NCBI GenBank assembly: GCA_902770965.1
Contig: CACXUY010000002.1
Location: forward strand, 1 to 64,000
Direction: 5' to 3'
DNA from: an uncultured Lachnospiraceae bacterium
GTDB lineage: Bacteria > Bacillota > Clostridia > Lachnospirales > Lachnospiraceae
Length of the DNA: 64,000 nucleotides
Part shown: piece by piece, positions 7,073 to 59,005 of the stretch
How positions within the stretch are numbered: the stretch's first letter is position 1
How the letters are laid out: each line of letters begins with the position of its first letter
Notes under the pieces: generated by a model
The model's input: only the letters and a program-made list of their open reading frames with translations
Databases searched by the model: none
Told to the model about the DNA's origin: nothing
Translations under genes and position numbers: made by a program

Positions 7073-7465
7073 AATTATCTTTCAAACAACTCCAATTATC
7101 CTATGGTTAAAGTCAGTCCTACATTTTAGGACTCTCGATTTATATGATCTTTCCGTATTTGTCCCTGACATCCCCGGAAACGCAATTTCTTTCATTCTTG
7201 CGGGAAATCATCAGATGTCCGGCGGCTTACCGGATCCATGGGTCGTTCCTGCCCCTCCGTGGTTCTCACCGAGCCGTCTCTCGACGGAAGTCTCATTATT
7301 CTGTGACAGATCTTCGCTTATGCGCCGGTTGCTGTCCGGCTCTTACAGGCCAGCTGCCGCTCTGGTCTTTCGACCGTCTCCGCGTTCGCTGCTGCTGTAG
7401 CTCCTTATCACTGGATCGTACCTGATGAATGTGTATTCAATTGTCCCGGCTTTCATCTTCTGGCC
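7073..7465. other. Intergenic stretch, nothing recognised
   Basis: Short frames on both strands lack ribosome sites and family motifs. No repeat shared with the rest of the window was found. It may be decayed mobile-element DNA. Confidence 0.4.
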
Positions 7466-44206: not shown

Positions 44207-44457
44207 AAAAAAGTCGCCTCCATTCGCACTTTTCAGTACGACAAGCGGTGACTGTACACGTTTCCGTGCGTGTCCATATGGAAAACGCACTTAGCGGTTC
44301 AAAGCTCTCTGAACCTTAGATTGTACAGTGACTTGTCGCCAGTATCTTGACTTGACATTCGCTCCCCGCAAATTACCTGCTCAAGGCAGCAACCTCACGG
44401 ATCAACGCTATCACGTCACAACTCATAGAATATACACCTTTGAAGTATCATTGTCAA
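44207..44457 (-). promoter_or_regulatory. S10-cluster promoter and leader
   Basis: TTGACA (44452-44457), 17 bases and TATATT (44429-44434) on the minus strand form a near-consensus promoter. The transcript then has a leader of about 215 bases before rpsJ. It contains complementary segments such as GAGAGCTTTGAACC and GGTTCAGAG, but no known leader class could be identified by eye. Confidence 0.75.
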
Positions 44458-52554: not shown

Positions 52555-52583
52555 TTGACAATTGACGCAGATTAATATATCAT
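52555..52583 (+). promoter_or_regulatory. Promoter of the decarboxylase beta-subunit leader
   Basis: TTGACA (52555-52560), 17 bases and TATCAT (52578-52583). Transcription would begin near 52590, exactly at the 5' side of the leader's P1 helix. Confidence 0.78.
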
Positions 52584-52590
52584 CAACTGA

Positions 52591-52740
52591 GTGAAAGGGA
52601 GTAGCTGGTCATACATTTACCGTCAGTATGATCGCCGGAGACGCCATACCCGATGATAAGCATCCGGATCCGGCTCGGTTTCAGATACCTACAGCAAGAC
52701 TTTTACCATGCAGAAGCTTTGGTATGAGTCTTGCTTTTTT
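52591..52740 (+). promoter_or_regulatory. Candidate metal-ion riboswitch with terminator
   Basis: P1 pairs GTGAAAG (52591-52597) with CTTTTAC (52700-52706). GGAGTAGC follows P1 directly. A P2 hairpin GGTCATAC/GTATGATC (52607-52614 with 52626-52633) holds CCGTCA in its loop, and GCCGGA/TCCGGC closes a further arm. The 3' P1 strand also forms the 5' side of an intrinsic terminator, 52693-52707 with 52721-52735, followed by six T. The P1-GGAGTAGC and AGA-P1 flanks resemble the yybP-ykoY (Mn2+) family; a Na+-sensing class would suit the downstream Na+ pump better. P1 formation would prevent termination, so ligand binding should switch the gene on. Confidence 0.65.
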
Positions 52741-52826: not shown

Positions 52827-53963
52827 ATGGCTGAATTAACTGCATTGTTCGGAAATGTCACAAATCTCACCTGGCAGATGGCCGTCATGTGGATAGTCGG
52901 AGGCATCCTGATCTATCTGGGCATCGTGAAGCAGATGGAACCCACCTTGCTGGTACCCATGGGCTTCGGCGCGATCCTCGTCAACCTTCCCATGTCCGGA
53001 GCCATCACCCAGACGATAAACGGCGTGGTGGAGGAAGGCCCGCTCGACATCCTTTTTAATGCCGGCATCGCGAACGAGCTGTTCCTGCTGCTTCTCTTCA
53101 TAGGCATCGGCGCGATGATCGACTTTACTCCCCTGCTTGCATGTCCTCAGATGATGCTTTTCGGAGCAGCTGCCCAGTTCGGCATCTTCTTCACGCTGAG
53201 CCTGGCGACGCTCTTCGGCTTCAATCTCCAGGACGCGGCATCCGTCGGTATCATCGGCGCGGCAGACGGTCCCACTTCGATCTTCGTGGCGGATTTCTTC
53301 AATTCAAAGTACCTCGGAGCTATCATCGTCGCCGCTTATTCATACATGGCGCTGGTACCCATCATCCAGCCGCCGGTCATACGTATGGTTACCACGAAGA
53401 AAGAGCGCATGATCCATATGGAATACAAGGCGCAGGATGTCTCAAAGACCGCGAAGCTCCTCTTCCCGATCTGCATCACCGTAGTCGCAGGCATGATCGC
53501 GCCCCGCTCCGTATCGCTCGTCGGCTTCCTCATGTTCGGCAACCTCATCCGTGAGTGCGGAGTGCTTGATACACTCTCAGACACAGCTCAGAACGTGCTC
53601 GCCAACCTTGTCACACTCATGCTTGGCCTGACGGTCGCTTCCCAGATGCTGGCTGACGCGTTCCTGAACCTCCAGACCCTGGCGATCCTGCTTCTTGGTC
53701 TCTTCGCCTTCATATTCGATACCGTCGGCGGAGTCATATTTGCCAAGATACTAAACATCTTCCTCAAGAAGAAGATGAACCCGATGATCGGCGCCTGCGG
53801 CATCTCGGCCTTCCCGATGTCGAGCCGCGTCATCACACAGATGGCCCTGAAGGAAGACCCCACCAACATCATCCTCATGCAGGCAGCGGGGGTTAATGTA
53901 TCAGGACAGATCGCCTCAGTCATCGCAGGAGGACTCATACTGACGCTGATTCCCAGGCTGTGA
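52827..53963 (+). CDS. Sodium-translocating decarboxylase beta subunit (OadB/GcdB/MmdB family)
   Basis: A 378-residue polytopic membrane protein. VKQMEPTLLVPMGFGAILVN, LLFIGIGAMIDFTPLLACP and GIIGAADGPTSIFVADFF (with the conserved Asp that takes part in Na+ movement) are family hallmarks. GLTVASQMLADAFLN and ISAFPMSSRVITQMALKEDP belong to the C-terminal half. The subunit couples decarboxylation of a biotin-bound carboxyl group to Na+ export. Carboxytransferase and biotin-carrier subunits are not in the window. The ribosome site (AAGG) is modest. Expression is probably governed by the leader upstream. Confidence 0.93.
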   Translation: MAELTALFGNVTNLTWQMAVMWIVGGILIYLGIVKQMEPTLLVPMGFGAILVNLPMSGAITQTINGVVEEGPLDILFNAGIANELFLLLLFIGIGAMIDFTPLLACPQMMLFGAAAQFGIFFTLSLATLFGFNLQDAASVGIIGAADGPTSIFVADFFNSKYLGAIIVAAYSYMALVPIIQPPVIRMVTTKKERMIHMEYKAQDVSKTAKLLFPICITVVAGMIAPRSVSLVGFLMFGNLIRECGVLDTLSDTAQNVLANLVTLMLGLTVASQMLADAFLNLQTLAILLLGLFAFIFDTVGGVIFAKILNIFLKKKMNPMIGACGISAFPMSSRVITQMALKEDPTNIILMQAAGVNVSGQIASVIAGGLILTLIPRL

Positions 53964-54157: not shown

Positions 54158-54301
54158 ATGATAGAGAATTTTATAGCTTCTCTCAGAGTCATGGGGCTTG
54201 GCATGCTTGGCATATTCGCCGTCGCCATAGTGCTGGTCATCATCATGAAGCTGCTCACCCATTTCTTCCCGGCCGACAAGAAGGACGAGCTTAAGGGCTA
54301 G
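54158..54301 (+). CDS. Small OadG-like membrane subunit
   Basis: 47 residues from ATG 54158 with AAGGAG upstream: a short amphipathic start MIENFIASLRVMG, one membrane helix (MLGIFAVAIVLVIIMKLL) and a charged tail. The size, single helix and place after the beta subunit match gamma-type (OadG-related) subunits that hold Na+-decarboxylase complexes together. The longer frame from 54113 lacks a ribosome site. Confidence 0.75.
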   Translation: MIENFIASLRVMGLGMLGIFAVAIVLVIIMKLLTHFFPADKKDELKG

Positions 54302-54336: not shown

Positions 54337-54395
54337 ATGAATGCTTGCACATTCACCGATTAACCAAGTGCTCTCCTGAATGTGCAAGCATTCAT
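54337..54395. terminator. Convergent hairpin with perfect 19-bp arms
   Basis: ATGAATGCTTGCACATTCA (54337-54355) is exactly complementary to 54377-54395, with a 21-base loop. It lies between the plus-strand OadG-like gene and the minus-strand kinase gene, overlapping the last codons of the latter. It probably ends both transcripts, although no long T run is present. Confidence 0.65.
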
Positions 54396-55399
54396 ATCAT
54401 TATGGAGAATCTGAATATATTTCCTTTCTCTTCTATTATATACCTCCCATGATATTTGTTTATTACTCCTATAATATTTTTTATGCCCAATCCATGCAGA
54501 TCAACCTCTGTCGATTTTGTTGTTTCAAATATATCGTCGTCTCGTATCAGGATATTGTCAAATGTATTTTCAACTGATATTATTAGCGCATCGGGTTCAT
54601 TCATCAGTTTAACCCTGATAATTTTTTTATTTTTTACTTTTGTGGCTGCTTCTATTGCATTGTCTAGTAAATTTGAAATTAATACAACTATATCCGCATC
54701 GCTTACTATTATTCCAGATAAATCGTTCACCTTTAGTAATAATAATATTTGCCTCGATAATGCTTCTCTATATTTTACATTTATAACCGAATTGACCATG
54801 ATATGGTTTGTATCAATTATATTTGTCTCTTCATTATGAATGTATGTATCAGATATATCCTCGATATACCTCACTGCTTCAGCATATTTTCCATTAGCTA
54901 TCAATGCTTGCAAACAAAACAAATGGTTTTTATGTTCATGATTGAGCCTTCTATGTTTTTCATAGTTTTCGATTATGTTACTGTACATCATTAACTGGTC
55001 TTTGCTCTGAACCGCAACCATTTCTTTTTCTTTTATTATTTCATTCTTTTTTGTTAATTCATGCAGCAAAGACAGAAAAAAAAAGTTCATCACTACAGTC
55101 CCAAAAGAAATTCCAAATGCAATCTGATATTGGAATTCATCACTGTAGCATATATAGAAAATGGATGCTATTGATATGATTGAAAACAAATGGAATAAAG
55201 CAGATTTAAAAGATATATTATCCACATCTCTATATATTGCCCTTTTAATGATGCCTGTAAGTAGAAGAACAAATAAAAAAATGATTATTAAGAGAGCCTC
55301 ATGAAAGATCATCGAATTAAATACCACATTAGCCGCATATCCAAAAACAACTTCTGCTATTTTGTGTGAGCAACGCTGCTTCTGGAATAATCCATACAC
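54392..55399 (-). CDS. AgrC-like sensor histidine kinase (GHKL domain), possibly shortened
   Basis: A 335-residue frame beginning with GTG at 55399; a later Met at 55312 is also possible. Three membrane helices remain where full-length AgrC-type kinases have five to seven. RRLNHEHKNHLFCLQALIA is the H-box, LISNLLDNAIEAATKVKNKK the N-box and HGLGIKNIIGVINKYHG the G-box. Such kinases usually sense peptides and sit beside a LytTR response regulator; none is present. The gene is clearly more AT-rich than its surroundings, which suggests transfer. Confidence 0.8.
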   Translation of the reverse strand: MYGLFQKQRCSHKIAEVVFGYAANVVFNSMIFHEALLIIIFLFVLLLTGIIKRAIYRDVDNISFKSALFHLFSIISIASIFYICYSDEFQYQIAFGISFGTVVMNFFFLSLLHELTKKNEIIKEKEMVAVQSKDQLMMYSNIIENYEKHRRLNHEHKNHLFCLQALIANGKYAEAVRYIEDISDTYIHNEETNIIDTNHIMVNSVINVKYREALSRQILLLLKVNDLSGIIVSDADIVVLISNLLDNAIEAATKVKNKKIIRVKLMNEPDALIISVENTFDNILIRDDDIFETTKSTEVDLHGLGIKNIIGVINKYHGRYIIEEKGNIFRFSIMI

Positions 55400-58644: not shown

Positions 58645-58715
58645 GCGGGTGTAGTTCAATGGTAGAACACCAGCCTTCCAAGCTGGACACGTGGGTTCGA
58701 TTCCCATCACCCGCT
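58645..58715 (+). tRNA. tRNA-Gly (TCC)
   Basis: The acceptor stem GCGGGTG pairs with CACCCGC. The anticodon arm CCAGC-CTTCCAA-GCTGG gives anticodon TCC. The T arm is GTGGG-TTCGATT-CCCAT with one wobble. First of four tRNA genes; CCA is not encoded. Confidence 0.95.
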
Positions 58716-58752
58716 CTGCGAATTTATATGATTCGCTGGTCTTAACTGACAT

Positions 58753-58827
58753 GGTGGGTGTGGCACAGTTGGTTAGCGCGCCAGATTGTGGTTCTGGATG
58801 TCGTGGGTTCAAGTCCCACCACCCACC
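58753..58827 (+). tRNA. tRNA-His (GTG)
   Basis: The acceptor stem GTGGGTG pairs with CACCCAC, and an extra G at 58753 faces the discriminator C, the hallmark of tRNA-His. The anticodon arm CCAGA-TTGTGGT-TCTGG gives GTG. The T arm is GTGGG-TTCAAGT-CCCAC. Confidence 0.95.
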
Positions 58828-58831
58828 CTCT

Positions 58832-58903
58832 TGGGCTATCGCCAAGCGGCTAAGGCACAGGACTTTGACTCCTGCATCGTTGGTTCGAATCCAACTAGTC
58901 CAG
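58832..58903 (+). tRNA. tRNA-Gln (TTG)
   Basis: The acceptor stem TGGGCTA pairs with TAGTCCA (one G-T pair). The anticodon arm CAGGA-CTTTGAC-TCCTG gives TTG. The T arm is GTTGG-TTCGAAT-CCAAC. A first acceptor base of U is typical for bacterial tRNA-Gln. Confidence 0.94.
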
Positions 58904-58932
58904 CTTAGCGAGCTCTGCCGAAGACTTATATT

Positions 58933-59005
58933 GGACGATTAGCTCAGGCGGTAGAGCACTTGACTTTTAATCAAGTTGTCGCGGGTTCGAATCCCGCATC
59001 GTTCA
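58933..59005 (+). tRNA. tRNA-Lys (TTT)
   Basis: The acceptor stem GGACGAT pairs with ATCGTTC. The anticodon arm CTTGA-CTTTTAA-TCAAG gives TTT. The T arm is GCGGG-TTCGAAT-CCCGC. Last tRNA of the cluster, followed by a strong terminator. Confidence 0.95.

Follow-up and report, generated by a model that had tools for sequence, protein, structure and literature searches.

A probable divergent yybP-ykoY riboswitch upstream of a sodium pump gene in a Lachnospiraceae bacterium

Which signal is read by the leader that lies upstream of a sodium pump gene in an uncultured Lachnospiraceae bacterium? The window (the whole stretch of 64,000 nucleotides that was analysed) contains a leader in which a helix and an intrinsic terminator compete for the same strand. 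An earlier note, made from the sequence alone, had seen in this leader a likeness to the yybP-ykoY Mn2+ family and, given the nature of the controlled gene, had considered a Na+-sensing class or a variant with changed ion choice as an attractive alternative. In our analysis, the leader is very probably a divergent yybP-ykoY (Mn2+) riboswitch, which would switch on the transcription of oadB and of a small oadG-like gene.

Architecture of the leader and of the oadB locus

The features of the locus are listed below with their coordinates in the window, strand, description and basis.

52555..52583, + strand: sigma-70-type promoter TTGACA-17-TATCAT (11 of 12 consensus positions)
52591..52597, + strand: 5' strand of P1.1, GUGAAAG, the switch helix (sequence; paired changes in relatives)
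52598..52603, + strand: 5' strand of L1, GGAGUA (invariant among 73 relatives)
52604..52607, + strand: 5' strand of P1.2, GCUG, with its partner CAGC at 52692-52695 (helix 95.5% paired; 4 of 4 pairs covary)
52608..52632, + strand: P2 hairpin GUCAUAC/GUAUGAU, with a loop including CCGUCA (fold; alignment with relatives)
52634..52674, + strand: P3 arm, made of P3.1 GCCGGA/UCCGGC, the internal loop L3 and P3.2 GAUG/CAUC (alignment with L082, L137 and L289; fold)
52640..52651, + strand: 5' strand of L3, GACGCCAUACCC, in P3 (alignment with relatives)
52677..52689, + strand: P4 hairpin GGU/ACC, weak (predicted fold)
52693..52740, + strand: intrinsic terminator hairpin and T run (hairpin 52693-52735, -22.6 kcal/mol)
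52696..52699, + strand: 3' strand of L1, AAGA (AGA at 52697-52699 invariant among 73 relatives)
52700..52706, + strand: 3' strand of P1.1, CUUUUAC, doubling as part of the 5' arm of the terminator (sequence)
52827..53963, + strand: oadB, sodium ion-translocating decarboxylase subunit beta, 378 aa (TIGR01109, 399.5 bits against a cut-off of 190.6, E = 1.2e-119)
54158..54301, + strand: OadG-like small subunit, 47 aa (NF040909, 23.1 bits, slightly below the cut-off of 25)

Our analysis recovered every element described in the earlier note: the consensus-like promoter, the P1 helix of 7 bp and the strong terminator. The -35 element (TTGACA) occupies 52555-52560 and the -10 element (TATCAT) 52578-52583, with a spacer of 17 nt, and the pairing of GTGAAAG (52591-52597) with CTTTTAC (52700-52706) in P1 is perfect. 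Since P1 and the terminator both use 52700-52706, they are mutually exclusive. Compared with shuffled sequences, the whole leader folds with a z value of -3.9, and about 85 nt separate the terminator from oadB.

The short motifs that had been pointed out are present as described, with GGAGTAGC directly 3' of P1 (52598-52605), AGA before the closing strand and CCGTCA in the loop of P2 (52620-52625). The proposal that CCGTCA is a conserved element did not stand: in the alignment it is not kept in the closest relatives, and the true L3 is CGCCA (52642-52646), which is located in P3 within the conserved loop GACGCCATACCC (52640-52651) and has CGUCA as its aligned counterpart in Mn2+ riboswitches. 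Two other placements of L3 were discarded during the analysis. An initial MAFFT alignment of the full set of leaders put L3 in the wrong place both in the window and in L137, and the covariance model's own placement in the window (CCGTCAGTATGAT) was rejected, P3 aligning with L289, L082 and L137 at GACGCCATACCCGATG.

The controlled gene had been correctly named as the beta subunit of a Na+-exporting decarboxylase. Residues D147, N318, G322, S327 and R334 of OadB, which we take to be known Na+-pump residues, are kept in 10 of 10 aligned members. The 47-aa OadG-like gene is probably co-transcribed with oadB, and a small gene resembling it sits 3' of oadB in most relatives. No carboxyltransferase gene adjoins oadB or lies in its operon, and one OadA-like gene, with a score under its cut-off, is found on a different contig of the genome. 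Next to the operon, 54392-55399 (- strand) encodes a protein that resembles sensor kinases and matches DcuS/MalK in its C-terminal part (E = 5.5e-9). Elsewhere, the window carries an S10-Clostridia leader (44333-44413, - strand), a pemK RNA motif (7236-7299, - strand) and a cluster of four tRNAs (58645-59005, + strand).

Conservation among relatives and sensitivity of the Rfam model

Among 299 genomes of the family, about 60 encode an OadB of the subfamily of the window (about 60-81% identity). Many of the upstream regions contain a leader in which GGGAGUAGC, CGNCA and GAGACUUUU follow one another. A covariance model (R1) was built from nine oadB leaders, the window being left out; in this alignment, 19 of 30 pairs are changed on both sides and the covariation is 0.513, against 0.218 after shuffling. 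This window-blind model gave a single match in the 64 kb (52588-52709, E = 3.5e-5), showing that the leader exists beyond chance. It found leaders in 33 of the 60 sources of oadB upstream regions, window included, with E of 0.1-0.9 for the weakest matches, and it matched 123 of the 299 family genomes. Across the whole 2.8-Mb genome, the model R2 has a single match, which is the leader of the window (E = 2.2e-4), and control of this kind may be limited there to oadB.

Paired changes, which the earlier note had proposed to look for in related leaders, are plentiful. Among 73 of the R1 copies, 91.3% of the cells are paired and 27 of 30 pairs show compensatory change; the covariation reaches 0.612, against 0.229 for shuffled alignments and at most 0.122 with slid partners. 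This covariation supports P1, P1.2, P2, P3.1 and P3.2 of a P1-P2-P3-P4 junction, P4 being weak in the window and outside the covariation set. No variation is seen among the 73 copies in GGGAGUA and AGAC, nor in the C of CGNCA or the opposing G of P3, and CGNCA retains its adenosine in 72 of them and in the window. The mutually exclusive, ON-type geometry is likewise strengthened, as P1 and the terminator overlap in 25 of 26 oadB leaders, and 103 of 108 other copies show the same overlap. At the level of sequence comparison, these data establish the structure of the leader and the competition of P1 with the terminator.

In a second collection, the leader is present at 28 of 80 oadB loci, always on the coding strand and upstream of the gene. 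These loci belong to Oscillospiraceae, Lachnospiraceae, Gemmiger and other Clostridia, and one of the leaders is that of Gemmiger formicilis ATCC 27749 (L326). It is apparently absent from L255, a close relative with an 80% identical OadB. The copies associated with ATPase genes and with oadB have an identical L3 (CGUCAGUAC). The L3 of the window (CGCCAUACCC) differs by a U39 to C change that is unique among the copies seen and, compared with its closest relatives (GACGCCAUACCC against GCGUCA-GCAC), by one extra nucleotide; by its sequence, the window is an outlying member. At L118, L122, L126 and L131, a compact aptamer devoid of P2, with GUCAACA as L3, precedes oadB.

The covariance-model search suggested by the earlier note returned no match of the window to either the yybP-ykoY or the Na+ (DUF1646) model at E<=10, and the Rfam scan of the leader gave nothing relevant even at this threshold. 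At the gathering threshold, Rfam reports the leader in none of 20 scanned oadB loci of the second collection, and at E<=1 RF00080 reached 0 of 19 family copies, MntP-associated ones included. RF00080 does match the oadB leaders of the sister loci L048, L045 and L057, at 20-26 bits. The model was also applied to E. coli (L253:2462-2576 and L254:1872-1967), where mntP scored 41.6 bits for a cut-off of 45 and alx was not among the matches listed at E<=0.01. The silence of Rfam on the window is therefore a property of the model and means little. We consequently rejected RF00080 as a judge of class membership: the window is below its gathering cut-off, but this cut-off is a detection rule rather than a biological feature and, given the mntP and alx results, does not define the class. 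The earlier note had named as contrary signs the lack of a model hit and the lack of a conserved competition in relatives; the former was observed, with an insensitive model, while conservation is strong. Class annotation by the Mn2+ riboswitch model of Rfam 15 is likely incomplete. Phage records gave no match to the leader, and plain BLAST with the leader across the family gave one clear relative only.

Genes sharing the aptamer and choice of the ligand

Genes downstream of the R1 copies were read for about 108 copies, with their identity taken from one scanned representative per cluster. They encode P-type Ca/Mn (cation) ATPases (47), Ca/Na antiporters (17), OadB (8), HflK-like proteins (7), CNNM (4), flotillin-like proteins (4), MntP (4) and DASS-like proteins (3), together with a Na/Pi symporter (L120) and others. 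Seven loci have a CNNM-type gene upstream of oadB, and at L113, L110 and L107 it is the CNNM-type gene that the leader precedes. In the family genomes, the aptamer thus sits before Mn2+ exporters (MntP and the P-type Ca/Mn ATPases), and its targets as a whole fit a Mn2+ regulon. The position of the aptamer before HflK-like and flotillin-like genes (L196, L215, L217, L157, L205, L229 and L245) suggests that metal load controls membrane quality-control proteins. At L227, L234, L237 and L238, it precedes a gene whose product, a small soluble protein (about 140-185 aa), matches no NCBIfam family.

From the class membership and the genes sharing the aptamer, which form a common regulon, we infer that the ligand is Mn2+ and that the direction is ON. 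A metal ion bridging L1 and L3 would dock the aptamer and hold P1.1 closed; its 3' strand would then be withheld from the terminator, allowing read-through into the Na+ pump gene. When the metal is lacking, the terminator would form and transcription would end about 85 nt before oadB. Under metal load, divalent-cation exporters, several of them Na+-coupled, could be expressed along with a pump that rebuilds the Na+ gradient. Against the Mn2+ reading stand the silence of Rfam on the window, the weak scores of the E. coli riboswitches in the reverse comparison (below), the U39 to C change in L3 and the fact that oadB is not known to take part in Mn2+ handling.

Several other explanations could be issued. 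A yybP-ykoY-derived variant could have kept the docking and the antitermination with an ion choice shifted to Na+, Ca2+ or another divalent ion for Na+-coupled genes such as oadB. The Na+-coupled or Ca2+ targets (OadB, Ca/Na antiporters, Na/Pi symporter, CNNM), the altered L3 of the window and the ability of the S. pneumoniae mgtA member to bind Ca2+ as well (PMC9495176) are in agreement with it. We nevertheless consider it unlikely, as 72 of 73 relatives, and the window too, retain the Mn2+-contacting A41, the oadB copies share their L3 with the ATPase copies and the same model matches MntP leaders; moreover, the Mn2+ contacts other than N7 of A41 are backbone phosphates (PMC9190785), so that the U39 to C change need not matter. 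A more specific version, in which the fold of the oadB-associated branch now senses Na+, alone or with a divalent ion, and turns on the Na+ pump, appears to us quite improbable.

The Na+-sensing class offered as an alternative in the earlier note is not supported. The Na+-I (DUF1646) riboswitch is also an ON switch and is known before some oxaloacetate decarboxylase genes (PMC9337991), but membership of the leader in this class or in the Li+ class is extremely improbable: the leader has no match to them at E<=10, none was found at the gathering threshold in 20 oadB loci, it resembles Na+-I in neither sequence nor structure, it has the L1/L3 core of yybP-ykoY, with the Mn2+-contacting adenosine retained, and genes for MntP, ATPases and antiporters are preceded by the same aptamer. 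That the leader is no more than a constitutive attenuator, or two hairpins present by chance, and senses no ligand, is very unlikely. The terminator would by itself attenuate, and the apparent lack of a leader in L255 would suit such a view, but the covariation of 27 of 30 pairs and the near invariance of both loops over 73 otherwise freely varying sequences argue against it.

With the Mn2+-type riboswitch as the preferred reading, the novelty lies in an unannotated Clostridial branch of the class, large in gut and rumen Clostridia and unreported by Rfam's class model, and in its link to a Na+ pump. In our literature search, which did not extend to the founding papers of the class, neither a yybP-ykoY member before oadB nor any connection of metal sensing with a Na+-pumping membrane protein was reported. 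Whether divalent-metal load is linked to the Na+ gradient can thereby be tested directly.

Comparison with known systems

The L1/L3 core, the RF00080 matches to sister leaders and the shared MntP and ATPase targets strengthen the kinship with yybP-ykoY that had been suspected. We take A41 of L. lactis to be the A of CGUCA, from our own reading of the numbering, and in the alignment A52646 of the window is its counterpart. Five phosphates and N7 of A41 hold Mn2+ in the structure from L. lactis (PMC9190785), and the mechanism published for L. lactis has P1.1 forming in competition with a terminator (PMC11087558). The order P1.1/L1/P1.2, P2, P3.1/L3/P3.2 is alike in the window and in yybP-ykoY members (RF00080; L. 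lactis yoaB, E. coli mntP and alx), and the GGGAGUA, CGNCA and AGAC core with the conserved L3 adenosine is common to them. In the window, P1.1, L1 GGAGUA(GC) and (A/G)AGAC are found at 52591-52606 and 52696-52706, CGCCA keeps the invariable adenosine of CGUCA and the preceding C in spite of the U39 to C change, the multi-helix junction P1-P2-P3-P4 is present, and the 3' strand of P1.1 doubles in the terminator as in the ON type, a competition shared by 25 of 26 oadB leaders. The window differs by CGCCA in a longer L3 loop, by a score below RF00080 detection and by its target, oadB.

Both E. coli riboswitches were located at the right place by R2, weakly (16-17 bits, E about 0.01 in 9 kb), and they represent two L3 forms that are both present among oadB leaders: alx (CGUCAUUACGAUG..CAUCCG) resembles the L3 of the ATPase and oadB copies, and mntP (GUCAACAU) has the GUCAACA form of other oadB leaders. 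Finally, SSRC10 (RF02617), a Streptococcus RNA filed as a trans-acting sRNA and lying upstream of a putative calcium transporter (PMC3675131), aligns end to end, terminator included, with leaders of relatives (42.9 bits on L045, 2715-2826; 43.2 on L157, 1470-1592), the window itself not reaching RF02617. SSRC10 is probably a terminated yybP-ykoY leader rather than a trans-acting sRNA.
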